A DNA stretch of 64,000 nucleotides from Methanosarcina sp. MTP4 (GTDB taxonomy: Archaea > Halobacteriota > Methanosarcinia > Methanosarcinales > Methanosarcinaceae): the NCBI RefSeq assembly GCF_000970045.1, contig NZ_CP009505.1, positions 2,542,001 through 2,606,000 of the forward strand, written 5' to 3'. Shown here one piece after another: positions 3,111-54,770 of the stretch. Each line of letters begins with the position of its first letter. The first letter of the stretch is position 1. The notes below the pieces were generated by a model. The model saw only the letters and a list, made by a program, of their open reading frames with translations. It made no database searches and was not told the origin of the DNA. Made by a program: the position numbers and the translations under genes.

Positions 3111-4397
3111 TTCAAAATTGACCTGTTCTTTTTTTGGCACTTTCCCATAGCCCATGCGATCTACTTTGTGGGCAGGCTGGAAGCCCCGACCGACATGCTC
3201 GAGCGCCTTTATGCCATCACCGCAGAGAAGCTGGAGGATGAAAGGCTTTCCCGCTTTCCTTTCAGGAACGTTGACGAGGCATTCCACTATTTTGCGGACA
3301 GGAAAGACCTGGTGCTCATCCTGGACGAGTTTCCTTACATGGCGAGCACGGAAAGCTCCATCCCTTCGGTTTTGCAGGACTACTGGGACCATAAGATCAA
3401 GGACACAAAGAGCAAGATCTTTGTCTGCGGCTCTTCCATTTCCATGATGGAAAAACAGTTTTTCAACTACTCATCCCCCCTTTACGGCAGGAGGACAAAG
3501 CAGGTCAACCTCCAGCCCCTTAAATTCACAAGCCTGGGAGATTTCTTCCCGGACGCCAGCCTGGACGAGCTAATCGCAATATACGCCGTCCTCGGGGGCA
3601 CTCCTGCCTACCTGCTGGAATACGAAGGCGATATTTTCGAGACAATAAAAGCCCGGGTCCTGAAAAAGGAAGAATTCCTCTACAGGGACGCCGAATTCAT
3701 CCTCCGGGAAGAACTCCGGGAGCCAAGGTATTATTTTACGATCATCCGCTCGATTGCCTTCGGGAACGCAAGCTCAGGCAAAATCATAAACGACACCGGC
3801 CTGTCCAAAGACGTGGTCGGGAAATACCTGCAGGTACTTCAGGAACTGGACATCATAGAGAGGAGAATTCCGGTAACAGAAGGAATAAAGTCCAGAAAAG
3901 GGATCTACCGGATAAAAGACAGCTACTTCAGATTCTATTTCAGGTTCATCTTTCCGAACATCGAGCACATCGAACTGGGGGACAGGGATTTTGTCCTGGA
4001 CAAGATCAAAAGCGCATTCAATAAATACCTGGGACCTGCATTCGAAAACATAATGCTCGAAATCTTAAAGGAAAACAGAAGCCTCCTCCCGATGAAGTTC
4101 AAGAAAATCGGAAGCTGGTGGAAAGGAGAAGACGAAATTGACCTTGTAGCTATGAATGAGAAAACGGACGAAATCCTTTTCGGCGAGATAAAGTACACGG
4201 CCAGAAAAACGAGTGTCAAAGTCCTTAACGATCTCAAAAAGAAAGCTGGAAAGGTCAAGTGGGGCTCTGAGGGATGCAAAGAACATTACCTGCTTGTCAG
4301 CATGAGCGGGTTCGATGAGGAACTGCGGGAGCTTGCGGCTGCTGAAAAAGTTACATTGATTGACAGGGACGTGCTCGAAAAAGTAGTTTTGAAATGA
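3111..4397 (+). pseudogene. Archaeal ATPase (DUF234 type), 5'-truncated without P-loop
   Basis: The readable frame begins at a GTG at 3168, but family-like sequence (HAIYFVGRLEAP) already starts at about 3153 in the same frame. The frame is open only back to a stop at 3108. Archaeal ATPases of this family are about 450-480 residues and begin with a GRRRxGKT Walker A; here that part is missing. What remains is the Walker B region (LVLILDEFPYM), a sensor region (KIFVCGSSISMM), a winged-helix segment (SSGKIINDTGLSKDVVGKYLQVL) and the C-terminal DUF234 nuclease-like domain (WWKGEDEIDLVA, then FGEIKYT). ATP binding should be lost. I read it as a decaying remnant, though the remaining ~410 codons have no further stop. 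Confidence 0.75.
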
Positions 4398-4430
4398 AGA
4401 AACCAGAACCAAGCAGGCAATATGAAAAAG

Positions 4431-4450
4431 ATTATTGTGAACACAATAAT
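4431..4450. other. Inverted repeat ATTATTGTG-AA-CACAATAAT
   Basis: A 9-bp perfect inverted repeat with a 2-nt centre lies 30 bases after the truncated ATPase frame, followed by more TTGT/ACAA motifs. The centre is too short for a good RNA hairpin, so a DNA-binding dyad is as likely as a terminator. Confidence 0.4.
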
Positions 4451-4671
4451 TGTTGTGACAATAATAATTAACAATAGGTTTGTTGACTGGTACGGGGAAG
4501 AGAGGAAAGAGTATTTTGCGGTTTTTTTGAGGAAAGGTTTTACAAAAAAAGCGATGGAGTTTGGCAGAGGAAGAGGGTTTTTGCTGTTTACATTGAAAGA
4601 TTTTGACTGTGTTGAGAGAGATTATCAGGCATCAGGAAGTAACTAAGTAGTAATTAAGTATTTAAGTAATA

Positions 4672-4905
4672 ATAACTAAGTAGTAACTAATAAAATAACC
4701 AATAAATAGCTGATTAATAACGAAGAAGATAACTAAGTAGTAACTAATAAAATAACCAAGAAATAGCTGACTAATAACGAAGAAGATAACTAAGTAGTAA
4801 CTAATAAAATAACCAATAAATAGCTGACTAATAACGAAGAAGATAACTAAGTAGTAACTAATAAAATAACCAAGAAAGAAATAAGTAGTAACTAACAAAA
4901 TAACC
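4672..4905. repeat. 57-bp tandem repeat, about 3.7 copies
   Basis: The unit begins AACTAAGTAGTAACTAATAA and ends CGAAGAAGAT. Successive copies differ at one to three positions. Because 57 is a multiple of three, the minus strand shows a spurious 19-residue repeating peptide. Related TAACTAA/AAGTAACTA strings recur after the next gene (6505-6585), so the gene at 4948 is bracketed by the same repeat family. Confidence 0.85.
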
Positions 4906-4947
4906 GTGATAAGGGGTAAGCTAATGAAATCTGAATGGGGGATCTGA

Positions 4948-6501
4948 TTGGCGCTTCCGGTTAACGTCCACGAACTCATCACCGGGCTCACAGTCGAATG
5001 GGAAAGGCTGGAATTCAAAGGATCCTGGAATCCCGAGTCCATTCTTCACTCGATGTGTGCTTTTGCAAACGACATCAACAACTGGGGAGGGGGCTACATC
5101 ATTGTCGGAATCGAGGAAAAGGACGGAAGGCCGATCCTTCCACCCGCAGGCCTTGATCTCGGCCAGATTGATGCATACCAGAAAAAGCTTCTCGAACTCT
5201 GCCACCTGATGACCCCAAATTACTTCCCGGTAGCTGTGCCCGAGGTATTCCAGAAAAAACACATTCTTATAATCTGGTGTGCGGGTGGGGATACACGGCC
5301 GTACAGGGCACCCAGAACTCTCGGCAAGAAATCCGAATCCGTATATTACGTCCGGCGCTTTTCCTCTACGGTCCGTGCCAGTTCCTCCGAGGACCAGCAG
5401 CTATTCAAACTTGCTGCCAAAGTACCCTTTGACGACCGGATAAACCAGAACGCTGACCTGGAAGACATGAATTTTACCCTTATCAAAGCCTTTTTGAAAG
5501 AGGTCGGAAGCGACCTCTATAAAACCGCAGATTCCATATCCTTCAAAGGCCTCTGTCTTCAGATGCAGATAGCAAGGGGACCTCCCGAATACCTTAAACC
5601 TGTAAACGCAGGCCTGCTCTTCTTCAACGAAAACCCGGACAGGCTGTTCAACGGGACCAGAATAGAAATCGTCGAGTACTACGATGAAATAGGAGACCGC
5701 TTCACGGAAAAAATCTTCACGGGACCCCTCCACATCCAGCTCAAAAACGCCCTCCAGTATTTGAAAAATCTGGTCCTGAAAGAAGAGGTAAGGAAAGTCC
5801 CGGACCGGGCAGAAGCCCTCAGATATTTCAACTATCCTTACAGAGCCCTTGAAGAAGCCCTCGCAAACGCCGTCTATCACAAAAGTTACGAAGAAAGGAG
5901 CCCTATCGAAGTAAACGTCCGCCTGGACAGAATCGAGATCCTCTCCTTCCCCGGTCCCGTCCCTCCCGTAAACAACGAAAAACTAAAAAAGCCCAGGGTA
6001 GCTGCCCGCAACTACCGCAACCGCAGGATAGGGGATTTCCTGAAAGAACTGCACCTTACCGAGGGCAGGAGCACCGGCATCCCCAAGATCCGCCAGGCAA
6101 TGAAAAGAAACGGCTCTCCACCCCCCATCTTCGAAACCGACGACGACCTCAACTATTTCCTGACGACCCTCCCAATCCACCCCGCGTTCATCAGCCAGCC
6201 CCTGGCCGACAGGACTGCCGAAGCCAGATCCGCATACCTGCCCGATGAAAGGTCCCTGGAAATCCTGGAATTCTGCATTAAGCCCAGGAAAAGATCGGAA
6301 ATAATGGAGCACATCGGACTCACCAACCAGACCAAGAACGTCAGGACATCAATAAAGCCCCTGCTTGACCAGGGATACCTTTCATACACGATTCCCACCA
6401 GGCCGAAGGATAGAAACCAGAGGTACCGGACTACGGAGAGAGGAGCAAAGTTGCTTGACGTGTTCTATGAAGAAAAACCGGAACATGTGAGCAGCAGCTA
6501 A
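4948..6501 (+). CDS. AlbA_2 (Schlafen-like)/HATPase-type DNA-binding regulator
   Basis: 517 residues. The order is an AlbA_2 domain in the N-terminal ~150 residues (WERLEFKGSW, AFANDINNWGGGYIIVGIEE), an ATPase-like domain at roughly residues 290-400 (YPYRALEEALANAVYHKSY, RIEILSFPGPVPP, GRSTGIPKI), and a C-terminal winged helix (RSEIMEHIGLTNQT). This is the arrangement of COG2865-type putative regulators. The start is a TTG directly after a TGA: an upstream ATG at 4924 is in frame but closed by that TGA, while GGGGGATC gives the TTG a ribosome-binding site. Targets are unknown; related genes are common in accessory and defence regions. Confidence 0.8.
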   Translation: MALPVNVHELITGLTVEWERLEFKGSWNPESILHSMCAFANDINNWGGGYIIVGIEEKDGRPILPPAGLDLGQIDAYQKKLLELCHLMTPNYFPVAVPEVFQKKHILIIWCAGGDTRPYRAPRTLGKKSESVYYVRRFSSTVRASSSEDQQLFKLAAKVPFDDRINQNADLEDMNFTLIKAFLKEVGSDLYKTADSISFKGLCLQMQIARGPPEYLKPVNAGLLFFNENPDRLFNGTRIEIVEYYDEIGDRFTEKIFTGPLHIQLKNALQYLKNLVLKEEVRKVPDRAEALRYFNYPYRALEEALANAVYHKSYEERSPIEVNVRLDRIEILSFPGPVPPVNNEKLKKPRVAARNYRNRRIGDFLKELHLTEGRSTGIPKIRQAMKRNGSPPPIFETDDDLNYFLTTLPIHPAFISQPLADRTAEARSAYLPDERSLEILEFCIKPRKRSEIMEHIGLTNQTKNVRTSIKPLLDQGYLSYTIPTRPKDRNQRYRTTERGAKLLDVFYEEKPEHVSSS

Positions 6502-6504
6502 AAC

Positions 6505-6585
6505 ATTAGCATGAAAGCTAATAGGCAACTAACAAGTAACTACTAAGTAACTAACAAATAACTAATAAGTAACTAAGTAAATATA
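6505..6585. repeat. AT-rich AAGTAACTAA/CAAATAACTAA short repeats
   Basis: Six or so degenerate 10-12-bp units of the TAACTAA family fill the space between two convergent genes and resemble the 57-bp repeat at 4672-4905. Confidence 0.6.
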
Positions 6586-6593
6586 AACCACTC

Positions 6594-7115
6594 TCAATAC
6601 TTCCGCACCATCTCCGCCTGCCACTCCGTTTCCGGCCACCCTCTCAACCCTCTTGACTTATTAATCCTGTCCAGGTAGTCCACCACCTCATCCGCGGAAA
6701 AACCAAGATCCCTGAGCACACACCCTATAACCGTTCCTGTCCTGCCTATGCCCCCCATGCAGTGGACGACAACTCCCTCTCCTGCATCAATTTTTCTTCT
6801 CACCAGAACCGCTGCCTTCCTGGCAAGCCACTCCTCCGTTGCAGGGTCCTGCGGCGGATTCCCATAGTGCAGGTCTTCCATCTCCGCAGAAAACAGCACC
6901 TTGAGGGGAGAGGGGTTGTAAGAGACCTCCGAGTCGCAGAGGCAGACCACCCCGGAAAAGCCCGCAGCAGCAATCTTTTCCCAGGGAGTGAATACTGCAG
7001 GATAGGTCATACCGGCAAGAAGCGCCGGCTCCTTTAGCACGATGTAGAGGTTCCGGGGCATTCTGATGCCGGCTATTACGGGCATCTCCAGCGAGGTTGG
7101 TAGTGAGGGCATCAT
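6594..7115 (-). CDS. Dual-specificity/tyrosine phosphatase family protein, copy 1
   Basis: 173 residues. The cysteine phosphatase signature HCMGGIGRTG lies at about residues 118-127, with nucleophile Cys119 and phosphate-binding Arg125. A short region before it (CLCDSEVSY, AEMEDLHYGNPP) would supply the general acid. No signal peptide or membrane segment is visible. The start follows a TATA-like stretch at about 7137-7146 with no clear ribosome-binding site, suggesting a short leader. A second copy at 10287 is nearly identical and lies in the same orientation, so the two bracket a lipid-head-group-like operon. The substrate could be a phosphoprotein or a phosphorylated small molecule. Confidence 0.85.
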   Translation of the reverse strand: MMPSLPTSLEMPVIAGIRMPRNLYIVLKEPALLAGMTYPAVFTPWEKIAAAGFSGVVCLCDSEVSYNPSPLKVLFSAEMEDLHYGNPPQDPATEEWLARKAAVLVRRKIDAGEGVVVHCMGGIGRTGTVIGCVLRDLGFSADEVVDYLDRINKSRGLRGWPETEWQAEMVRKY

Positions 7116-7180
7116 GGAAGAAGTAGGGAGGATATGGGATATAAATTATCAGTGGGTTGGGGATGGGAGTGTTGGAAGGA
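6595..7180. repeat. ~590-bp segmental duplication, left copy
   Basis: The phosphatase gene plus about 60 bp of promoter DNA (GATATAAATTATCAGTGGGT near 7137) recurs in direct orientation at 10289-10880. Divergence is limited to scattered substitutions in the coding part. Confidence 0.85.
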
Positions 7181-7435
7181 GTTGGGATCTAAAAGCCGTA
7201 TGGTGGGGAGATAACCCGAATGAAAATTTATATCACTCATTTAAAAAACTTGAAGGCGTAATCATCAGATCAGCCTTTGTTTGAGGCATACCCCACCAGG
7301 ATTATTTATTGGAACTATTATGAATAATATACTCTTTTTTGACCAAATAATCCCAAATTTTAAAACTCTGGGGACAATTTAAATACTAACTACTAGTTAT
7401 ATACATGGTATGAATAACAATCAATTGGATTTACG

Positions 7436-8401
7436 ATGAATGTGAACCACTGCAATCGTGATGATGGAGTTATAACTACAGCATTACTATTGGCAGCTGG
7501 TAAGGGTAGTCGTCTTTATCCTTTAACACGCGACACACCAAAATGTCTTACAATAGTTCATAAAGTATCCATACTTGAACGACTTGTCATCAATTTGAAA
7601 AATCAAGGCTTCAAACGTCTTGTTGTGGTCACAGGGTTCCAGGAAAAATGTATTCGTGATTTTCTGGGAACGCGGGCTGGCGGAATGAAAATCGAATATA
7701 TTTTCAGCCCCCTTTATGAGACCACCAATAACATATATTCGCTCTGGATGGCCCGTAAAATTATTAATGAACCGTTTCTCCTGGTTGAAAGTGATCTTGT
7801 TTTTGACGTATCTCTTCTGGATGACATGTGTTTTCCTGACAGAATTGCCGTTGCACACATGCAGCCGTGGATGAATGGTTCCACTGTCACAATCGATCAA
7901 TCCCAGGATGTTAAGAAGTTCCAATGCGGTACTCTCAAGCCTTTTGATGAGATCAGATACAAGACTGTTAATATTTACAGTTTTTCGCTTTCTTCATGGC
8001 ATAGTATTACAAAAAGACTGGACCAGTACATTTCAGCCGGCAGAGTAAACGACTATTATGAAACCGTATTTGCGGAAATGGTGGCTGATGGTAGTCTCTC
8101 TCTTAAAACCGTCTCTTTTGACAGCAAGCGATGGTATGAAATAGACACAGTTAAGGATCTGGCAGAGGCTGAGAAACTATTTTCGGCGGACAAATCAAAA
8201 ACAATAATTCCTAACAATATCACGCCGCATAGCTCTGGAATATCAAAGTCGTTTTTTCAACAAACAAAAAGAAAGGAGAAGGATACGATTACTCGTTCAA
8301 TTTCCGGTTTGAGGTCATTCCCTCCGTCCAATTCTTTAAAATTAAAGCCAATTCTTAAGGCTAAGACTCCAAAAACAGAAGTGCCACCTAAAAACAAATA
8401 A
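7436..8401 (+). CDS. LicC/MobA-like nucleotidyltransferase, probable phospho-aminoalcohol cytidylyltransferase
   Basis: 321 residues. The nucleotide-binding signature LAAGKGSRLYPL with PKCL at residues 19-38 marks a sugar-nucleotide/phosphocholine type transferase. TTNNIYSLWMARKII followed by LVESDLVFD (metal-binding Asp) and the late motif WYEIDTVKDLAEAE resemble LicC-type CTP:phosphocholine cytidylyltransferases rather than hexose enzymes (family recollection, not a search). The last ~55 residues are a basic, low-complexity tail. It is the first gene of a tight operon with a PLP enzyme and a CDP-alcohol transferase, which supports activation of a phosphorylated aminoalcohol with CTP (inference). 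Confidence 0.75.
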   Translation: MNVNHCNRDDGVITTALLLAAGKGSRLYPLTRDTPKCLTIVHKVSILERLVINLKNQGFKRLVVVTGFQEKCIRDFLGTRAGGMKIEYIFSPLYETTNNIYSLWMARKIINEPFLLVESDLVFDVSLLDDMCFPDRIAVAHMQPWMNGSTVTIDQSQDVKKFQCGTLKPFDEIRYKTVNIYSFSLSSWHSITKRLDQYISAGRVNDYYETVFAEMVADGSLSLKTVSFDSKRWYEIDTVKDLAEAEKLFSADKSKTIIPNNITPHSSGISKSFFQQTKRKEKDTITRSISGLRSFPPSNSLKLKPILKAKTPKTEVPPKNK

Positions 8402-8414
8402 AGAAGGAAAATAC

Positions 8415-9536
8415 ATGATGCAGTATAACTATAAGACTCAAACTGAAAAATACGAATTCGTTTCCGGACAGCATGGTGGTTACTATCATCATAATTTCAT
8501 AGACCATGCTTATCTTTACAATCTATATTTCCCGCCAGAGGCAGTTTTTACAAACTTTAAAAATCAAATTCACGACATTGTCCTTAATTACCCGATTGCA
8601 CAGGATGCTCTTGCCGGCCTTATCGGTAATCTGATCCATCAACCTGCTGAAAGAATCGTTGTGGGAAACGGCGCTGCCGAACTTATCAAAATTATATCCG
8701 GCCACGTATCCAGCAAGTTGATCGTTCCAGTGCCCTCTTTTAATGAATATGCTAATGCAGCACCGGCAGGCCGGGTAGTTGAATTCCCCCTTGAATTTCC
8801 ATCTTTTCAATTGGATGTAGATAAGTTTGCTGCTGAAGCGATCAGGGTTAAAGCAGATGTTGCTGTTGTGGTAACACCTAATAATCCAACATCTATACTG
8901 GTTCCTAAGTCCGATCTAATAAATCTTGCACAAAAACTTGCAAATCATGATTGCATGCTGATCGTCGATGAATCCTTCATGGATTTTGTACATAACCCGG
9001 ATCAAACAAGCCTGGAACATGAAATCGAACGTTACCCAAATGTGGCAATCATTAAAAGCATGAGCAAAGCCTATGGCATCTGCGGTCTCAGGATAGGTTA
9101 TATGCTAACTGCAAATTCAGCATTTGCTGAAGCTGTAAGGAAAGGCGTACATATCTGGAATATTAACGGATTTGCCGAAGAGTTTCTTCGGATTTTGCCC
9201 GATTACAGACAGGAGTTTGTCGAAAGCTGTAAACAGGTACGGATCGACAGGGACAATCTGTATAAAAACCTGTGTGCTATCCAGGGAATGACTGTTTACA
9301 AACCTGATGCAAACTTTGTTTTCTGCCGCCTCCCGGATTATGCACAAAGTGGCCCTGAAATCACGCGGCAATTGTTTATTGAGCATAACATGTACATAAA
9401 ACACTGCCAGGACAAAACTCTACCTGATTCTAGCCGTTATGTTCGTATTGCCAGCCGTACTGAAACAGAAAATTGCAAATTAGTTGAAGCATTGGCAGAT
9501 ATCATTGACTTGAATAAAACGGAAGTATCCAGATGA
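8415..9536 (+). CDS. HisC/CobD-like fold-type I PLP enzyme
   Basis: 373 residues. The PLP Schiff-base lysine is Lys218 in SMSKAYG. PNNPTS (155-160) and VDESF (Asp185) bind the cofactor, and RIGY plus a C-terminal YVRIASR (Arg) bind the substrate. The overall pattern is histidinol-phosphate aminotransferase/threonine-phosphate decarboxylase. AGGA lies seven bases before the first of two consecutive ATGs. Related enzymes annotated as aminotransferases in Campylobacter capsule clusters decarboxylate serine phosphate to ethanolamine phosphate. Between a cytidylyltransferase and a CDP-alcohol transferase that reaction would be logical, but a simple transamination cannot be excluded. Confidence 0.75.
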   Translation: MMQYNYKTQTEKYEFVSGQHGGYYHHNFIDHAYLYNLYFPPEAVFTNFKNQIHDIVLNYPIAQDALAGLIGNLIHQPAERIVVGNGAAELIKIISGHVSSKLIVPVPSFNEYANAAPAGRVVEFPLEFPSFQLDVDKFAAEAIRVKADVAVVVTPNNPTSILVPKSDLINLAQKLANHDCMLIVDESFMDFVHNPDQTSLEHEIERYPNVAIIKSMSKAYGICGLRIGYMLTANSAFAEAVRKGVHIWNINGFAEEFLRILPDYRQEFVESCKQVRIDRDNLYKNLCAIQGMTVYKPDANFVFCRLPDYAQSGPEITRQLFIEHNMYIKHCQDKTLPDSSRYVRIASRTETENCKLVEALADIIDLNKTEVSR

Positions 9537-10189
9537 AAGATTCGCAACATCAACAATCACATAAGACAGGAATGCTTACTTTTGCCAGAGACCTTCCAAA
9601 TATCTGTTCGCTTGCAGGGCTATTATGTGCGGTCCTTAGTATATACTATGCTATATTAGGCAATTTTCCGGTTGCGATAATTGGAATGGTTTGGGCTGTT
9701 TTTTTTGACTGGGGGGACGGAATCATTGCCCGTCGGATGAAGGGGCGAACTGATGAATATCGAGCTATCGGGGGACAGCTTGATTCATTGATAGATATTG
9801 TAAGTTTTGGAATTTGCCCCGCTGTATTTCTCTTGAGCTATGGAGAATTCAGTCCATGGTTCTTACCTGGAGCATTCGTGATTGTCGCTGCCAGTGCAAT
9901 ACGCTTGAGTTATTTCAATGTTTTCGGCCTGGTCGATGATTCGACATACATGGGATTGGCACTTGACAACAATGTCATTATTCTTGCTTTTGTCTTTCTG
10001 TTTAACGGTTTATTCGGCCATACAATTTTTTCAGTCATTATATATACAATGTTTATGTGTATGGCTGTCTTTAATTTAGCACCGATCCGAACGCCCAAGT
10101 TTAACGGAAGGTGGTTTTATGCTCTCGGGGTTTATGTCACGGGATTAACAGCCATCTATAGCTGGATACTGTGGGGCAAGTATCCGTAA
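9533..10189 (+). CDS. CDP-alcohol phosphatidyltransferase family membrane enzyme
   Basis: 218 residues with about six hydrophobic segments. The family motif is present: D62-G63-x2-A66-R67, then G80-x3-D84-x3-D88 (FDWGDGIIARR, GGQLDSLIDIVSFG). The gap between AR and G is 12 residues, longer than the usual 8-9. The DSLxDxVSFGxxPA part is closest to archaeal/bacterial serine-type synthases. The ATG overlaps the previous stop codon by four bases, so it is translationally coupled. It should transfer a phospho-head group between CDP-alcohol and a lipid acceptor (or CDP-archaeol and an alcohol) in the membrane. Confidence 0.85.
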   Translation: MKDSQHQQSHKTGMLTFARDLPNICSLAGLLCAVLSIYYAILGNFPVAIIGMVWAVFFDWGDGIIARRMKGRTDEYRAIGGQLDSLIDIVSFGICPAVFLLSYGEFSPWFLPGAFVIVAASAIRLSYFNVFGLVDDSTYMGLALDNNVIILAFVFLFNGLFGHTIFSVIIYTMFMCMAVFNLAPIRTPKFNGRWFYALGVYVTGLTAIYSWILWGKYP

Positions 10190-10286
10190 AAGGAGACATT
10201 AATCGTAATAATTCAGCCTGGACAAAACAACATCAATAGCCATCTTAATTAAAATTCAATGGACAAATTTCAAAAACCGTCCACTG

Positions 10287-10808
10287 TTAATACTTCCTCA
10301 CCATCTCCGCCTGCCACTCCGTCTCCGGCCACCCTCTCAACCCTCTTGACTTATTAATCCTGTCCAGGTAGCCCACCACCTCGTCCGCGGAAAAACCAAA
10401 GTCCCGTAGCACACATCCTATGACCGTCCCGGTCCTGCCTATGCCCCCCATACAGTGGACAACGACTCCCTCTCCTGCATCAATTTTTCTTCTCACCAGA
10501 GCCGCTGCCTGCCTGGCAAGCCCCTCCTCAGTCGCAGGGTCCTGCGGCGAATTCCCATAGTGCAGGTCTTCCATCTCCGCAGAAAACAGCACCTTGAGGG
10601 GATGAGGATCATAAGAGACCTCCGAATCGCAGAGGCAGACAACTTCGGATAAGCCCGCAGCAGCAATCTTTTCCCAGGGAGTAAAAACTCCGGGGTAGGG
10701 CATTCCGGCAAGAAGCACCGGCTCCTTGAGTACGATATAGAGGTTCCGGGGCATTCTGATGCCGGCTATTGAGGGCATTTCCAGCGGGGTTAATAGTGAG
10801 GGCATCAT
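10287..10808 (-). CDS. Dual-specificity/tyrosine phosphatase family protein, copy 2
   Basis: 173 residues, almost identical to the protein at 6594, with the same HCMGGIGRTG active site (Cys119, Arg125). Differences are scattered substitutions (for example EMPSIAG for EMPVIAG, and DFGFSADEVVGYL for DLGFSADEVVDYL). A TATA-like stretch at about 10834-10843 matches copy 1. Both copies look intact, so both may be expressed. Confidence 0.85.
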   Translation of the reverse strand: MMPSLLTPLEMPSIAGIRMPRNLYIVLKEPVLLAGMPYPGVFTPWEKIAAAGLSEVVCLCDSEVSYDPHPLKVLFSAEMEDLHYGNSPQDPATEEGLARQAAALVRRKIDAGEGVVVHCMGGIGRTGTVIGCVLRDFGFSADEVVGYLDRINKSRGLRGWPETEWQAEMVRKY

Positions 10809-10880
10809 GCCAAAGAGTACGAAGGGAGGGGATATAAATTTTCAGTGGGTTGGGAATGGGGTGAGGGAGAGTTTGGAAGG
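10289..10880. repeat. ~590-bp segmental duplication, right copy
   Basis: Direct-orientation partner of 6595-7180, covering the phosphatase gene and its promoter. Recombination between the copies would delete the intervening three-gene operon. Confidence 0.85.
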
Positions 10881-10932
10881 TAAAGGACTAGCCATCAACA
10901 ATTAAAAAAATTATGAAACAAAAAATGCAATT

Positions 10933-11691
10933 TCAAATTTCATAAAAATTAGGCAGAGTTTTAAAGTAATCTCGATGGAATTTCAGTTCAATATTAAGAA
11001 TCTCGTCATCAAGGGTTTTATTTAATGCGTAAACAAATTTTTTCAAGAACTCAATCTGATCTTGTGCATCACTTATAGAAGGAATGGTTGTACCTGACCC
11101 GCCATGAGCAAATGAATTTCTTAAACCGATGAATTCTTCCAATTTTGTTTCAACACCCCCCACATAATCCAAGTCATTAAAAGTATCACGGCTAAATATA
11201 TTACGAATACCTATGTCAATAAACATTGTTCTAATTGTATCTTTACCAGGATTAGAATTTGTGATTGAGAAAGACTCTTTGACAAAAATTGGTTTATATT
11301 CGCAATTTTCAAAAGACGAAGCGTAAATCTTAACTATCTTTTCATAATCTGAATTCAATTTTTGTTCATTAATTAATTTTAGAACCTGTAATGTTTTCCT
11401 TTTATTTGTAATCAAAAGTTTTTCATCAATATATTTAGTTGGAAGATTCATATTATTAATTTGCTCAATAAATTCCATAAAAGACTCTTTAAGGTATTTC
11501 TCGAGAAATCCACTACTCATTATGATTGCACTTCTTGAAGCCACGGACCAAATTATTCTAAAATTTTCAGTATTCATTTTACTAGCGTAATCTAGCAGAG
11601 AATTTACCTCTTCAATTTGGTCCAAAAAATGAATATAGGAGGCATTTATTCTATAAAATTCAGTGGAACTATGAGAATTAAAAGAGCTCAT
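10933..11691 (-). CDS. HEPN-domain protein (MAE_28990/MAE_18760-like), partner of DUF262 protein
   Basis: 252 residues, all helical. The HEPN RNase motif R-x4-H is present as Arg191-NSFA-His196 (GLRNSFAHGG), preceded by a long helix in the N-terminal half (SAIIMSSGFLEKYLKESF) typical of these proteins. It begins four bases after the stop of the DUF262 gene, so the two form one operon. Base composition is much more AT-rich than dapL next door, suggesting recent acquisition. Such pairs occur in defence contexts; the active-site motif suggests an RNA-cutting effector (inference). Confidence 0.75.
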   Translation of the reverse strand: MSSFNSHSSTEFYRINASYIHFLDQIEEVNSLLDYASKMNTENFRIIWSVASRSAIIMSSGFLEKYLKESFMEFIEQINNMNLPTKYIDEKLLITNKRKTLQVLKLINEQKLNSDYEKIVKIYASSFENCEYKPIFVKESFSITNSNPGKDTIRTMFIDIGIRNIFSRDTFNDLDYVGGVETKLEEFIGLRNSFAHGGSGTTIPSISDAQDQIEFLKKFVYALNKTLDDEILNIELKFHRDYFKTLPNFYEI

Positions 11692-11695
11692 AATA

Positions 11696-12802
11696 TCACA
11701 CTACTGATGAAAGCATGTCCAAAAATTTTTGGATTCTTGTTCTGTTTGCCTCTAAGCTATTTGTTCCTTTTCTAATTGATTCAACAAAATCAGTATCTTC
11801 AAACAATAATTTAGTTCCACTTATTATCTGGTCTTCTTTTCCTTTTATTGAATCCTTACTTACTTTTGAAAAACTATACATAATAGCATCGTAAAATGGG
11901 GCCGAAATTGTGGTCCATTCACTTTTAGAAGTGTCCCATTTTCTGAAAGCTTGATTTCCATAAATGCTATACACTTTATCGACAGTTTCCGTGAATGAAA
12001 TTCTATTATCTTCAAGTTCCTTGTCTGTGACATTAGAATTTTTTTGTTCCATATATTTATTCATGGATGTTTTTAAATTTCCAGTAACTTTTTCATAATC
12101 TTGGAGCAAAAAGAATCTTAAAACTAATTGGACATCGTCCATCCTTTGATATATTTTAATCTTCTTAAGCTTGTCAAAAGACGTTGGAAGCCCTAAACAT
12201 TCTCGAAAATAGTTTAGCTCTGAAAGTTCGACCAAGAGATCATTAAATTTTCCACGATGAATGCAATTTCTGACCTCTTGTGGAGTTAGGTTTTCTCCTC
12301 CAGTATTAATTCTTTCGAAAACATCAAACTTTATATCTAAGTCAGATTCATTTAGCAAAACAACGGCAGAGATCGAACGTCTTTCAATAGCATTTCTTAT
12401 AGTTTGATTCAATTGACTAAATTTTTTCCCATTAAGCTCCCCCCAAAATGTAAGACCAGATAGTGCAAATTTATCAGTTAAATACATGTTAATTGCAGTT
12501 AGTCTCTGCTTACCATCCATAACTGAGTAAGTATTATATTCTTCTTCTGCAAGAAATATTGGAGGAATTGGAACAGCCATTATTATAGATTCAATAAGCT
12601 TGGATTGTTGTTTCACATTCCAACGATCTCGTCTTTGAAACTTAGGCTCAAGATCTATCACTTTGTTTTTCAACATGTCTTTTAAGCTTGGTATGTACAG
12701 GTCCATCTTTTGACTAACGAGCCTTTTTTGTTCTTCCTTGTACTTCTCTGTGATGACAAAATCTTCATCTTCAATAGCTTCAATTTCTTCATCTTCTTCC
12801 AT
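11696..12802 (-). CDS. DUF262 (ParB/GmrSD-N-like) domain protein
   Basis: 368 residues. The DUF262 core is clear: PKFQRRDRWN (54-62), IESIIMAVPIPPIFL, then D96-GKQR-100 with the following LTAINMYL, and FERINTGGENLTPQEVRN at about 162-179. DGQR-type residues are the putative nucleotidase centre of GmrS-like proteins. The acidic N-terminus (~30 residues) looks disordered. There is no fused DUF1607/HNH nuclease as in GmrSD; the HEPN protein encoded next may supply the effector instead. The gene is strongly AT-rich. Confidence 0.8.
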   Translation of the reverse strand: MEEDEEIEAIEDEDFVITEKYKEEQKRLVSQKMDLYIPSLKDMLKNKVIDLEPKFQRRDRWNVKQQSKLIESIIMAVPIPPIFLAEEEYNTYSVMDGKQRLTAINMYLTDKFALSGLTFWGELNGKKFSQLNQTIRNAIERRSISAVVLLNESDLDIKFDVFERINTGGENLTPQEVRNCIHRGKFNDLLVELSELNYFRECLGLPTSFDKLKKIKIYQRMDDVQLVLRFFLLQDYEKVTGNLKTSMNKYMEQKNSNVTDKELEDNRISFTETVDKVYSIYGNQAFRKWDTSKSEWTTISAPFYDAIMYSFSKVSKDSIKGKEDQIISGTKLLFEDTDFVESIRKGTNSLEANRTRIQKFLDMLSSVV

Positions 12803-13081
12803 TTTAATCTCTCAACTTATTTGACCAGTACATTTAGATATGAACGTCAAGCTTTTAATTATTTCGTCAAGAATTAACAAATTGAATCTTAATAAAATAT
12901 GAAAGATTACAAGATTTTTAAAAGTTTGTATTTGTTCCTCGGATATTTCAAATATCCAGATATTTATTACTCGTCTACCCTCAATCACAACCTCCCCTCA
13001 TCCCATACCTATTAATATTTCAATCACCGTACCTATCCCAGAAAAACACGCCGTAAATCCCATATATAGGTGACTTTACCA

Positions 13082-14239
13082 ATGTATTCCGACCGAATCA
13101 ACGCATTACCCCCATACCTTTTTGCAGCGATCGATGAAGCAAAAGCCGAAGCTAAGGCTAAGGGAGTCGACGTGATCGACCTTGGGATAGGAGACCCGGA
13201 CCTGCCCACCCATCCGCATATTGTGGAGGCTATGTGCGAGGCTGTCAGGGACCCGAGGACGCACAGTTATCCGTCCCACAACGGGCTTTATGAGTTCAGG
13301 AAGTCTGCGGCTGACTGGTGCGAGAAGTATAAGGGCGTTAAGCTCGACCCGGACAGCGAGGTCCTGGCCCTGATCGGGTCCAAGGAGGCTGTGGCACATA
13401 TCCCGCTTGCTTTTGTCAACCCCGGAGATGTCGTGCTCTATACCGACCCCGGCTATCCTGTCTATAAGATAGGGGCCGAGTTTGCGGGCGGAGATCCGTA
13501 CCCGCTGCCCCTGAAGGTTGAAAACGACTTTTTGCCTGACCTTGACTCCATCCCGGCAGATGTCCTTCAAAAGGCAAAGCTCTTCTTCTTCAACTACCCG
13601 AACAACCCGACCTCGGCTGTTGCGGATATGGCTTTCTTTGAGAAGGTCGCAGCGTTCTGTAAGGAGCACGACATCATTGCCGTGCACGACAACGCCTACT
13701 GCCAGATGGTCTACGACGGCTATGAATCCCCTTCCTTCCTGGCTGCAAAAGGCGCAATGGACATAGGGATCGAACTCTACTCCCACTCCAAGACCTACAA
13801 CATGACCGGCTGGAGGGTCGGCTTTGCTGTCGGGAACAAAGACCTGGTCAAGGGCCTGGACAAAGTCAAGTCCAACATCGACTCCGGAACCTTTGAAGCC
13901 GTACAGCTCGCAGGCGCAGCAGCCATGAACGAGTCCCAGGCATGTGTGGACGACACGAACAAAATCTACACCGAACGCAGGGACACCCTGATCGAAGGGC
14001 TCAAAGCCATGGGCCTTGAAGCAAAACCGCCCAAAGCCACCTTCTATATATGGGCCCCCGTCCCCGCAGGCTTTACCTCCATGGAATTCTCAAAGGTCCT
14101 CCTTGAGGAAGCCGGAATCGTAGCAACTCCGGGCGTCGGCTTCGGAGACGCAGGCGAGGGCTTCATCAGGTTCGCACTCACCCAGCCCGTACCCAGGCTT
14201 CAGGAAGCTGTCGAGCGGATGAAGAAGCTGCAGTTCTGA
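13082..14239 (+). CDS. dapL: LL-diaminopimelate aminotransferase
   Basis: 385 residues from the chosen ATG. The cofactor lysine lies in HSKTYNMTGWRVG, with the class I/II landmarks NYPNNPT, VHDNAYCQM and a C-terminal FIRFALTQP (Arg). It resembles the DapL2-type enzyme of methanogens that converts tetrahydrodipicolinate directly to LL-DAP for lysine synthesis. An in-frame GTG exists at 13070, but AGGTGA at 13068-13073 is better read as the ribosome-binding site for ATG 13082. It is transcribed alone and ends in a strong terminator. Confidence 0.9.
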   Translation: MYSDRINALPPYLFAAIDEAKAEAKAKGVDVIDLGIGDPDLPTHPHIVEAMCEAVRDPRTHSYPSHNGLYEFRKSAADWCEKYKGVKLDPDSEVLALIGSKEAVAHIPLAFVNPGDVVLYTDPGYPVYKIGAEFAGGDPYPLPLKVENDFLPDLDSIPADVLQKAKLFFFNYPNNPTSAVADMAFFEKVAAFCKEHDIIAVHDNAYCQMVYDGYESPSFLAAKGAMDIGIELYSHSKTYNMTGWRVGFAVGNKDLVKGLDKVKSNIDSGTFEAVQLAGAAAMNESQACVDDTNKIYTERRDTLIEGLKAMGLEAKPPKATFYIWAPVPAGFTSMEFSKVLLEEAGIVATPGVGFGDAGEGFIRFALTQPVPRLQEAVERMKKLQF

Positions 14240-52630: not shown

Positions 52631-53422
52631 TTAGTCCTTCCTTTCAAGGCCTACCAGGAATTCTCCCCGGATTTCTTCAGCCTTTTTGCGTGCCAGCTCA
52701 ATTGCTTCCAGCAACTCATCCTCGGTAAGAGGGGCAGAACCGATCTTCTGCATGCCGTTAACCGACCCGTCCGAGCTGGACACTACTGTCAGCTTTGTTT
52801 CACAGACAGCTTCCTCGTCCCTGCCAGGGTCCACCATAAGCTTCCCTCCGATCTTGGCAATGGTTACACCCACCGGCATTTCCTTCATTGCCAGAGGTGC
52901 GTCTTCCCCAATGCCCGCCATCTCGTTCGGGACAATGGTGGTCATGAGGGCTCCAATACCAGCAAGGCAGGATGCGTCAATGATATTCCCTTCGTCATTC
53001 AGGACATGAATGTCGATAAAGGCGATCCATACGGATTCGCCTTCCGTTATGCAAAGCTTCTTTATATCAATTGCGCCTGATTCCCTGATTCCCCTGTCCA
53101 CGACACGGGCCATCTCGATTGCTTCTTCCCTGGGGGGTCCGGGCTCAAAGCTCGGGGAAGCTATGGGATTCAGTTCCAGGTTTGTAATGATCACACCTTC
53201 GTCCCGAGAATCAGCGAAAGGAGTTCCGGTCTGGAGCTTTACGCCCACAAGGACCTGGGTTTTCCCGAGGGTCACCTTCGCAGAACCTTCAGCTTTTGCA
53301 ATAACGTTTGTTTCAAGCTTGATGTCCCTGAAATCTTCGAACCCACGCCCGTCCAGGCGCTTACCTTTGACCATGAGATTGTAAATATAATCTCCCTTCA
53401 GGGTAGGAATAACATCACTCAT
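52631..53422 (-). CDS. rrp42: Exosome core subunit Rrp42 (RNase PH-like, non-catalytic)
   Basis: 263 residues from the ATG at 53422, which has a perfect GGAGGTGA ribosome-binding site; the open frame extends 30 codons further only because it overlaps the rrp41 end. LDGRGFEDFRDIKLETNV, GKTQVLVGVKLQTGTPF and EFLVGLERKD are typical. With Rrp41 it forms the hexameric RNase ring that degrades or tails RNA. It overlaps the rrp41 stop by eight bases. Confidence 0.95.
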   Translation of the reverse strand: MSDVIPTLKGDYIYNLMVKGKRLDGRGFEDFRDIKLETNVIAKAEGSAKVTLGKTQVLVGVKLQTGTPFADSRDEGVIITNLELNPIASPSFEPGPPREEAIEMARVVDRGIRESGAIDIKKLCITEGESVWIAFIDIHVLNDEGNIIDASCLAGIGALMTTIVPNEMAGIGEDAPLAMKEMPVGVTIAKIGGKLMVDPGRDEEAVCETKLTVVSSSDGSVNGMQKIGSAPLTEDELLEAIELARKKAEEIRGEFLVGLERKD

Positions 53423-54770
53423 CGTTTTCACCTCCGTTCCCGGCTTCAGGATCGAGAGGGTCCTTGACAACCTTCCAGGGCCCTTCGGCCTCTTCCTCAG
53501 CTTCCTCTTCAAGCTCTTCTGCCGGAATTTCTTCTTCCTCTTCGTCAGCTTCGAGCTCTTCCTCAGCCTCTTCTTCGGTTTCAGCCTCGAATTCTTCTTC
53601 GAAGGATTCTTCTTCAGCTTCCTCTTCAGATTCCTCTTCGGATTCCTCGGCTTCTTCCTCAGATTCCTCTTCGGATTCCTCGGTTTCTTCCTCAGATTCC
53701 TCTTCGGATTCCTCGGCTTCTTCCTCAGATTCCGCTTCGGATTCCTCGGTTTCTTCCTCAGATTCCTCTTCGGATTCCTCGGCTTCTTCCTCAGATTCCT
53801 CTTCGGATTCCTCGGCTTCTTCCTCAGATTCTTCTTCGGATTCCTCGGCTTCCTCTTCCTCGGAAATTACTTCATCAGATTCCTCGGCTTCTCCCTCAGA
53901 TTCCTCGGCTTCCTCTTCCTCGGAAATTACTTCATCAGCCTCTGCTGCCTCTTCAACTTCGGTTGTGCCCGCATATTTGGCGGCCACTTCAGAGATTTCG
54001 GCTTCTGCAGCTTCAACGGCTTCCTCTTCCTCAAGCTCTTCGGCTTCCTCTGCTTCCGGAAACTCGAACTTTGTCCTGAGGGCAGCCTGCTGGAGTGCAA
54101 AGATCTGGCTGCAGCCTTTCTTCACAAGTTCCAGACCCTTCTTAATTTCATCCTGGGTGAGGTGCCCGTCCATCTGGACCAGGGTAATTTCCCCATCTTG
54201 AGTCAGGGCCACCGGGAAATCAGCATCTCCGTAGTTATCCTCATCTTTGCTGAGGTCGAGAACGACCTGACCGTCTACCTTTCCAAAAGCACAGGAAGTC
54301 ACAAGCCCCTTCATGGGAATGCCAGCATCGGCAAGAGCAACAGATGAAGCATTGATTGCGGCGGTCCTTGTCCCCGCATCTGCCTGGAGGACTTCAACAA
54401 AGATATCAATAGCCGCTTTCGGGTACAGTTCACTCATGATCACAGGCTCGAAGGCATCCCTGGAAACCTTTGAGATTTCAATGCTCCGCCTGCTGTGCCC
54501 GGGGCGGGCGCGGTCTTCAACGGAAAAAGCAGCCATATTGTATCTGTAGCGGATAACTGCAGAGTCTGGACGCTGCATTCGACGGGGGTGTGCTTCTCTG
54601 GGGCCGTATACCCCTACCAGGATCTTGTTCCTGCCCCATTCAAGATAACAGGAACCATCGGCTCTTGAAAGTACGCCGACTTCTATTTTCATGGGCCTGA
54701 TCTCATCCATACGCCTCCCGTCAAGGCGCAGCCCGTCATCAGTAATTAATTTTTCAGGTTTACCGCTCAT
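53415..54770 (-). CDS. rrp41: Exosome catalytic subunit Rrp41 with long acidic repeat tail
   Basis: 451 residues; the RNase PH core ends at about residue 240 (normal archaeal length about 245). LRLDGRRMDEIRPMKIEVGVL, GPREAHPRRMQRPDSAVIRYRYNMAAFS, and DADFPVALTQDGEITLVQMDGHLT belong to the catalytic core. The remaining ~210 residues are almost only Glu, Ser, Ala and Asp, with SEEESEEEAEE repeats (about residues 300-390), ending GPWKVVKDPLDPEAG. The tail is a coding tandem repeat and is probably disordered; I recall long tails in other Methanosarcina Rrp41 proteins. Confidence 0.95.
   Translation of the reverse strand: MSGKPEKLITDDGLRLDGRRMDEIRPMKIEVGVLSRADGSCYLEWGRNKILVGVYGPREAHPRRMQRPDSAVIRYRYNMAAFSVEDRARPGHSRRSIEISKVSRDAFEPVIMSELYPKAAIDIFVEVLQADAGTRTAAINASSVALADAGIPMKGLVTSCAFGKVDGQVVLDLSKDEDNYGDADFPVALTQDGEITLVQMDGHLTQDEIKKGLELVKKGCSQIFALQQAALRTKFEFPEAEEAEELEEEEAVEAAEAEISEVAAKYAGTTEVEEAAEADEVISEEEEAEESEGEAEESDEVISEEEEAEESEEESEEEAEESEEESEEEAEESEEESEEETEESEAESEEEAEESEEESEEETEESEEESEEEAEESEEESEEEAEEESFEEEFEAETEEEAEEELEADEEEEEIPAEELEEEAEEEAEGPWKVVKDPLDPEAGNGGENDE

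Follow-up and report, generated by a model that had tools for sequence, protein, structure and literature searches.

What would a methanogen make with a cytidylyltransferase, a PLP enzyme and a CDP-alcohol transferase that are encoded in immediate succession? The locus raising this question resides in the window analysed here, a stretch of 64,000 nucleotides from the 4.21-Mb single contig of Methanosarcina sp. MTP4 (Table 1). A sequence-only reading had described it as an operon that would activate an aminoalcohol phosphate and transfer it to a lipid, thus constituting a Kennedy-type route in an archaeon, with a phosphonate or capsule head group as the other option. The described arrangement is found exactly, with the three open reading frames located on the + strand, a 13-bp gap (8402-8414) between the cytidylyltransferase and the PLP gene and a 4-bp overlap (9533-9536) between the latter and the transferase. 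All three products match Pfam families above the curated cut-offs (PF00483/PF12804 for P0001, PF00155 for P0002 and PF01066 for P0003). Scans for sigma-70 promoters and terminators, whose bacterial models are poorly suited to archaea, returned nothing above shuffled controls.

Table 1. Features of the locus, in coordinates of the 64,000-nucleotide window
Feature	Position	Strand	Length
Left copy of flanking direct repeat (300 nt of a ~590-nt duplication)	6588..6887	-	
LicC/PntC-type cytidylyltransferase P0001	7436..8401	+	321 aa
CobD-like fold-type I PLP enzyme P0002, predicted phospho-amino-acid decarboxylase	8415..9536	+	373 aa
CDP-alcohol phosphotransferase P0003, membrane protein	9533..10189	+	218 aa
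Right copy of flanking direct repeat, 92% identical	10281..10580	-	

The existence of this triad as a unit is far beyond chance. A search for it in other genomes, which the earlier reading had suggested, yielded 79 loci of patchy spread in Methanosarcinales and many bacterial phyla, with the fixed order preserved in most of them and identities of roughly 52-98% over the three proteins (70-96% for the PLP protein). In nearly all of these loci, the genes of the cytidylyltransferase and the transferase adjoin the PLP gene with order and strand kept. The claim of an archaeal pathway holds with respect to its host, whose genus-mates and nearest relatives are of the Methanosarcina type, but not with respect to specificity for archaea, since the bacterial carriers are many, unrelated and anaerobic. 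The archaeal copies form one clade next to deltaproteobacterial ones and, as judged from these relationships, the triad is a cassette that has spread horizontally between archaea and bacteria. No relative was found on viral contigs, and there is thus no sign of carriage by viruses. In MTP4, the cassette is flanked by the two repeat copies, each carrying a gene for a dual-specificity phosphatase (6594-7115 on the left and 10287-10808 on the right), and a genus-mate that lacks the cassette contains a single repeat copy at the syntenic site. In distant relatives on plasmids, the cytidylyltransferase is fused to the PLP enzyme (in Priestia and in Rahnella, where a transferase gene is located next door), and in a distant relative from Erwinia the PLP enzyme is fused to the transferase. 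Together with the gene order, these fusions show that the three enzymes act in concert. Our literature search found no paper describing this triad.

The features of P0001 point to its likely substrate. Its catalytic domain (about residues 13-250), which is followed by an archaeal-type tail without conservation (255-321), contains the nucleotide-binding signature LAAGxGxRLxPLTxxxPK with the catalytic residues R26 (76 of 76 homologues) and K36 (77 of 77), and its closest solved structures are LicC and PntC. On the amine side, an acidic pair of the PntC type is formed by E118, which was placed by an ungapped match to PntC, and E209, present in 78 of 78 and 77 of 77 homologues, respectively. Both correspond to E104 and E196 of Tde-PntC, which contact the primary amine of the substrate and whose equivalents in LicC are D105 and D192 (PMC6697681). 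P0001 would thus read a small primary amine, with CTP and an aminoalkyl phosphate as predicted substrates. A DIPP/inositol route (IPCT-DIPPS) was considered and rejected, since its matches are weak (58 of 580 bits for NF041135 and an E-value of 1e-7 to 2xme) and a PLP partner is present.

In P0002, the Schiff-base lysine K218 and residues N157, D185, R226 and R344 are conserved in 81 of 81 sequences, and an HGG motif is found at positions 20-22. The best named family is that of threonine-phosphate decarboxylase (TIGR01140), although the score of 179.9 bits remains below the cut-off of 290.55, and the closest solved structures are a threonine-phosphate-decarboxylase-like enzyme and CobD. At the position of R323 in CobD, the family carries K329 throughout (81 of 81). 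We thus predict P0002 to be a CobD-type decarboxylase of a phosphorylated amino acid. A role in cobamide synthesis was rejected, since the genome encodes its own B12 CobD, which scores 339.5 bits to TIGR01140, contains the metal-site tail and adjoins cbiB, and so was a histidinol-phosphate aminotransferase, whose model TIGR01141 gave 138.6 bits against a cut-off of 276.55. The combination of H20 and K329 is a signature of the triad, whereas PEP-mutase-linked relatives, as far as their sequences are readable and cover these sites, carry R329 and a proline or serine at position 20; a relative from S. fredii NGR234 without the PLP lysine was left out of this comparison. PEP mutase was found neither in the genome of MTP4, in a search whose controls responded in 11 of 14 cases, nor in five other archaeal carriers, and only one of nine bacterial carriers showed a strong full-length match. 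The substrate is thus likely a phosphate ester, and the phosphonate head group considered earlier is rejected.

The transferase P0003 is a member of its superfamily (48.3 bits to PF01066, cut-off 22), whose motif DxxDGxxAR...GxxxDxxxD appears as D59xxDG..AR..G..LDSxxD88, with all four aspartates present in 74 of 74 homologues. Its resemblance to serine-type synthases, noted from the sequence before, is reflected in the closest solved structure, the phosphatidylserine synthase (PSS) of M. jannaschii (7b1k), and in the retention of every serine-contact residue. The Ser1-site residues D62, S63, D66 and F105 of PSS (PMC8633023) correspond to D84, S85 and D88, found in 74 of 74 family members, and F128, found in 73. 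Part of this site belongs to the general catalytic motif as well, so that its conservation argues weakly for serine, and the position of S85 varies in rhizobial relatives. Arg101 of PSS is kept as R124, while Arg104 is replaced by Y127 and the lipid-side sequence GLPxPAG by GLALDNN across the family. The NCBIfam matches comprise PSS, archaetidylserine synthase (ASS), AIP synthase and Pcs, with the scores for PSS and ASS models all below their cut-offs (86.4 versus 240, 68.6 versus 107 and 63.7 versus 200 bits). P0003 has derived features in common with rhizobial transferases encoded beside aepX and LicC genes, namely a lengthened motif loop together with W54 and Y127, which suggests that the donor of P0003 is probably a soluble CMP conjugate. 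The AlphaFold model of P0003 was too poor for use (mean pLDDT 55.6, pTM 0.45), probably because the alignment contained close relatives only.

Genes for phosphodiesterases, ABC, DMT and MFS transport, AsnB, a formyltransferase and an opine dehydrogenase neighbour the relatives of the transferase, and the rhizobial neighbourhoods include transporters, phosphodiesterases and amino-acid tailoring enzymes besides CMP-phosphonate genes. Elsewhere, the cassette may contain a fourth gene, encoding either a methyltransferase or a relative of ATP-grasp amino-acid ligases, the latter a weak assignment that falls short of the Pfam cut-off and whose best match among solved structures has an E-value of 6e-8. 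Both never occur together, and the MTP4 cassette contains neither. Besides these two and a metallophosphoesterase, no neighbouring family recurs in more than a few of the 79 loci.

From the observed gene order, conservation, residues, fusions and absence of PEP mutase, we tentatively infer substrates and product of a possible route that leads from phosphoserine to CDP-ethanolamine and ends with the transfer of phosphoethanolamine to a small hydroxyl acceptor. P0002 would decarboxylate O-phospho-L-serine, or possibly O-phosphothreonine, with phosphoethanolamine as the product in the former case, which P0001 would convert with CTP to CDP-ethanolamine, although both steps could occur in reverse order, as in FrbH. 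P0003 would then transfer phosphoethanolamine to a hydroxyl acceptor to form a phosphodiester, which in other genomes might be modified further by the ligase or methyltransferase. The acceptor is more likely to be a small hydrophilic molecule than archaeol, and serine would be the best single guess. That P0003 is a CDP-ethanolamine:serine phosphotransferase and the cassette a complete pathway from phosphoserine to serine-phosphoethanolamine is, as a specific claim, rather unlikely. To our knowledge, this activity (EC 2.7.8.4) is known from animals, and we know of no gene encoding it.

The described features also bear on other readings of the locus. O-phosphothreonine as substrate, which would provide the (R)-1-amino-2-propanol phosphate found in cobamides, could account for TIGR01140 as best family of P0002, but the insufficient score, the replacement of R323, the separate bona fide CobD and a nearest solved chain that is only 'threonine phosphate decarboxylase-like' render it improbable. 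A phosphonate pathway, in which aminoethylphosphonate would be activated and subsequently esterified, finds a parallel on rhizobial plasmids, where relatives of all three proteins adjoin PEP mutase. The scarcity of this enzyme in carriers of the triad and the distinct residues at positions 20 and 329 leave it a negligible probability, and for the genome of MTP4 it is refuted, barring a non-homologous enzyme forming the C-P bond. CDP-ethanolamine might also serve in the decoration of a surface glycan or a polymer of the wall, such as methanochondroitin or a capsule, with P0003 acting on a lipid-linked sugar. Such a role would resemble the surface decoration by LicC and PntC pathways (PMC6697681) and the suggested parallel to the Campylobacter capsule, and it is very improbable given the lack of further gene families recurring beside the triad.

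The end point proposed in the sequence-only reading, in which P0003 would move phosphoethanolamine to archaeol, or to diacylglycerol in bacteria, as a second route to archaetidylethanolamine or an aminopropanol lipid, deserves closer consideration. The membrane location of CDP-alcohol transferases and the existence of phosphonolipids derived from CMP-aminoethylphosphonate both count toward a lipid acceptor, as does the predicted CDP-aminoalcohol donor. On this reading, the fourth genes would act on the lipid head group, either by methylation, in parallel to that of phosphatidylethanolamine, or by aminoacylation. Conversely, P0003 best matches PSS and ASS models and no ethanolamine or choline phosphotransferase, although NCBIfam may hold no prokaryotic model of this kind, its closest relatives outside the triad are located in clusters resembling those for soluble metabolites, and the usual route by archaetidylserine decarboxylation is, as had been assumed, already present, with ASS and PS decarboxylase encoded side by side. 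Moreover, the same enzyme, at up to 83% identity, is found in hosts of opposite lipid stereochemistry, an objection that is weakened by the indifference of PSS to the lipid backbone. We thus regard this end point as doubtful, whereas the CDP-aminoalcohol pathway leading to it, with its LicC/PntC-type, CobD-type and CDP-alcohol transferase components, is supported by E118 and E209, the gene order and the fusions. Alternatively, P0003 could resemble PSS in adding an alcohol to CDP-archaeol, with the cytidylyltransferase serving another step. This would be in line with its top scores, for ASS (86 bits) and PssA (69 bits), its nearest structure and its full serine site, but the scores below cut-off, the family-wide changes at Arg104 and GLPxPAG, the link of relatives with these features to LicC/PntC and PEP mutase, and a cytidylyltransferase left without use make it highly improbable.

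If the favoured route to a small phosphodiester were correct, a short self-contained pathway would cross between the two domains despite the difference in their membranes, which would point to an undescribed phosphodiester metabolite in methanogenic communities as well as in those of seeps and sediments. In addition, a large subgroup of 'CDP-alcohol phosphatidyltransferases', so far unlabelled and now annotated in databases as lipid enzymes, would gain a substrate logic. With serine as acceptor, methanogens, ANME archaea and surrounding sulfate reducers would contain a soluble phosphodiester that is decorated by ligases or methyltransferases. If the product were instead a lipid, an archaeal ether lipid would be made by a Kennedy-type route, for which we know of no precedent either.

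Among the closest known systems is FrbH of FR-900098 biosynthesis, a characterised fusion of a cytidylyltransferase and a PLP decarboxylase (PMC8976061), which, compared by description, shares with the triad the pairing of LicC-like and CobD/HisC-like enzymes to make a CMP-aminoalkyl conjugate (PMC8976061, PMC6697681). A unit of this type is reflected in the adjacency of both genes in nearly all loci and their fusion in Priestia and Rahnella relatives. In contrast to FrbH, the triad genes are separate, the lack of PEP mutase implies a phosphate ester instead of a phosphonate, and a CDP-alcohol transferase follows. We know of no such transferase in the FR-900098 pathway. With the Pnt pathway to CMP-aminoethylphosphonate, the triad shares the LicC-family fold and glutamates at both amine-contact positions, but its PLP partner is a CobD-like enzyme of class I/II and not, as for Tde-PntC, an AEP transaminase of class V, PEP mutase is missing and the transferase is of the CDP-alcohol and not the LicD-like type. 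Rhizobial plasmid clusters of aepX, aminotransferase, LicC and transferase genes, as in S. meliloti AK57 and M. japonicum pMLa, for which we found no experimental function, contain LicC and a transferase that, with its W54, Y127 and long loop, falls into the subgroup of P0003 at 30-34% identity, yet differ in their phosphonate donor and the variable S85 position. The predicted CDP-ethanolamine donor is common to the Kennedy pathway, where phosphoethanolamine originates from ethanolamine and a kinase and not from an amino acid; the triad transferase is apparently not of the EPT/CEPT type and its acceptor probably not a diradylglycerol. As in M. jannaschii PSS, P0003 contains the CDP-AP motif and the Ser1-site residues but, unlike it, has Y127 in place of R104, a replaced GLPxPAG sequence and extra residues in the motif loop, and is always paired with a cytidylyltransferase. 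P0002 shares fold, catalytic residues and HGG motif with CobD, from which it is set apart by its score below the TIGR01140 cut-off, the exchange of R323 for K329 and its presence as a second copy besides the B12 enzyme.

The three-gene cassette in the window encodes a genuine pathway, which is both strongly conserved and mobile. Its open reading frames, with their 13-bp gap and 4-bp overlap, were found exactly as described by the sequence-only reading and belong to the Pfam families NTP_transferase (the LicC/PntC-type cytidylyltransferase P0001), Aminotran_1_2 (the CobD-like PLP enzyme P0002) and CDP-OH_P_transf (the CDP-alcohol transferase P0003). The search for the same triad in other genomes, which that reading had advised, has identified 79 loci upon scanning one genome per species (PLP protein identity 70–96%), and in nearly all that are long enough the three genes share order and strand. 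Among aligned copies, identities amount to 70–94% for the PLP protein (20 copies) and 52–95% for the transferase (31 copies). The host is a Methanosarcina-type archaeon with a single-contig genome (4.21 Mb, completeness 99.9%), whose nearest loci are found in Methanosarcina sp. and in MAGs assigned to this genus. Other archaeal carriers belong to Methanococcoides, Methanolobus and ANME-type Methanosarcinales, bacterial carriers to Desulfobacterota, Bacteroidota, Calditrichota, Spirochaetota, Chloroflexota and others. Since bacterial hosts are often MAGs, individual bins may be wrong, but the triad is present in Methanococcoides seepicolus strain LLY and in the complete window genome. Its prevalence is low: within the archaeal phylum it occurs in 14 of 393 genomes, all from a single order, and within the phylum that includes Eth-SRB1 in 3 of 395. 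A tree of the PLP protein unites the archaeal copies in one supported clade (96*), which groups with mostly deltaproteobacterial copies; a single interdomain transfer would be the simplest reading. Methanosarcina sp. STD2_179 carries the whole triad twice in tandem.

The phosphatase genes flanking the cassette are 91–92% identical, with 6588–6887 and 10281–10580 in register. Since the genus-mate G003 lacks the triad and contains one phosphatase copy between the same flanks, both genomes represent an occupied and an empty site, and the duplicated phosphatase segment either arrived with the cassette or was caused by it. In two further genomes, the triad is located between one full and one truncated phosphatase copy (G001) and at a different site (G002).

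Positions of features in the window and in loci of relatives
Feature	Sequence	Position	Strand	Remark
Dual-specificity-phosphatase gene	window	6594-7115	-	flanking copy, left of triad
Dual-specificity-phosphatase gene	window	10287-10808	-	flanking copy, right of triad
P0001 C-terminal tail	window	8200-8400		65 residues, basic, low-complexity
Tandem array	window	4638-4905		57-bp unit, AT-rich, 3.6 copies, 97%; just upstream of 4948-6501 gene
Fasciclin-domain repeat protein	window	30326-33430	+	1034 aa; four near-identical 444-bp units
Exosome Rrp41 gene	window	53415-54770	-	very long, repetitive Glu/Ser-rich C-terminal tail (33-bp tandem repeats)
Tandem triads	L005, Methanosarcina sp. STD2_179	7022-9760, 10606-13344
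NTP-PLP fusion cluster	L096, Priestia megaterium pBM700	5269-8915
PLP-CDPt fusion	L097, Erwinia rhapontici pERA55	4632-6692
PLP relative	L098, S. fredii NGR234	4293-6149
Metallophosphoesterase	L022	6085-6930
Metallophosphoesterase	L073
Metallophosphoesterase	L075
Metallophosphoesterase	L078

The best solved match of P0002 is a 'threonine phosphate decarboxylase-like enzyme' (5e-51), followed by 3ftb and CobD, and its CobD-family score of 180 bits lies under the cut-off of 290.55. A role in B12 synthesis is not needed, since the genome holds a separate CobD (339.5 bits) adjoining cbiB. All 81 of 81 copies contain a lysine (K329) at the position of R323 in CobD, which is shared by five plasmid relatives without linked PEP mutase (L096, L097, L117, L118, L120; two weaker PEP-mutase-family matches are found about 490 kb off on the L118 plasmid). 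Relatives linked to PEP mutase (L094, L095, L099, L121) carry arginine, as does L119, which has no PEP mutase and an adjoining GHMP kinase gene. Because no PEP mutase was found in the window genome, the enzyme probably acts on a phosphate ester, with phosphoserine as common cellular candidate. The relative from S. fredii, where alanine replaces the Schiff-base lysine and glutamine the PLP arginine, is probably inactive or repurposed.

Among solved structures, the family profile of the cytidylyltransferase comes closest to LicC (E 3e-22) and PntC (9e-15). In PntC, E104 and E196 are located near the primary amine of AEP, with Asp in equivalent positions of LicC (PMC6697681). E118 of P0001 aligns with E104 in an ungapped PntC match and E209 with D192 of LicC, and both are invariant among homologues, suggesting that the substrate is a small primary amine, for instance phosphoethanolamine, rather than phosphocholine; phosphoserine would be a conceivable alternative. 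The P0001 tail has a similar length in most archaeal copies and is missing in many bacterial copies. FrbH provides a precedent both for combining a cytidylyltransferase with a decarboxylase and for activation preceding decarboxylation (PMC8976061).

Fusions join the first two activities in Priestia and Rahnella and the latter two in Erwinia; in Rahnella the transferase gene follows 1 bp after the fusion, with an ATP-grasp gene downstream. The Erwinia fusion is preceded by broken nucleotidyltransferase pieces. On its plasmid, which has no PEP mutase, the Priestia fusion shares a cluster with a pair of ATP-grasp genes, a gene for an AAC(3)-type acetyltransferase and an additional DXP reductoisomerase gene; this looks like a fosmidomycin/fosfoxacin-type product cluster plus its resistant target. 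Downstream of the triad, 15 loci encode an ATP-grasp protein and 11 a methyltransferase, while no locus has both; for the 59 eligible loci, the probability that such a lack of overlap arises by chance is 0.027 if relatedness is ignored. The ATP-grasp protein, whose Pfam match is under cut-off and which among solved structures is closest to L-propargylglycine-L-glutamate ligase (6e-8), accompanies the triad across domains (identity 58–78%) and is absent from the window genome. A calcineurin-like metallophosphoesterase, possibly a co-transferred phosphodiesterase, adjoins the triad in one Methanolobus locus and in three loci from bacteria, the archaeal and bacterial versions being about 70% identical.

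Together, the enzymes would convert phosphoserine to CDP-ethanolamine and the latter to a phosphoethanolamine diester with a putative acceptor. The enzymology of the sequence-only reading largely holds, whereas its lipid end point is not supported. The membrane-bound nature of P0003 speaks for a lipid product, which nevertheless appears less likely than a soluble one: in the genome, an archaetidylserine synthase (ASS) gene already lies next to that of a PS-decarboxylase homologue, no EPT-type model is among the NCBIfam hits of P0003, and the neighbourhoods of its relatives agree better with small compounds that are exported and taken up again than with membrane lipids. These relatives are rhizobial-plasmid transferases, which share W54, Y127 and a longer loop with P0003 and adjoin LicC-type genes plus PEP mutase, or a GHMP kinase, implying a soluble CMP conjugate as donor. 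Their surroundings also encode a type I phosphodiesterase (PF01663), a metallophosphoesterase, AsnB, a formyltransferase and an opine dehydrogenase, besides ABC substrate-binding proteins and DMT/MFS transporters. We tentatively favor a soluble product, a reading of somewhat under even probability. Serine may be the acceptor, judging from an intact serine site and from tailoring enzymes that would match a product resembling an amino acid; in animals, serine-phosphoethanolamine is a known metabolite (PMC7471963).

P0003 contains the complete CDP-AP motif. In the phosphatidylserine synthase (PSS) of M. jannaschii, serine is bound via D62, S63, D66 and F105, R101 and R104 are part of a chloride network, and CDP-DAG is contacted by helix 5 and adjoining loops (PMC8633023). 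At the corresponding positions, P0003 has D84, S85, D88, F128 and R124. In contrast, Y127 replaces R104, and the sequence GLPxxAG, found in PSS and in the genome's own ASS, is GLALDNN in P0003.
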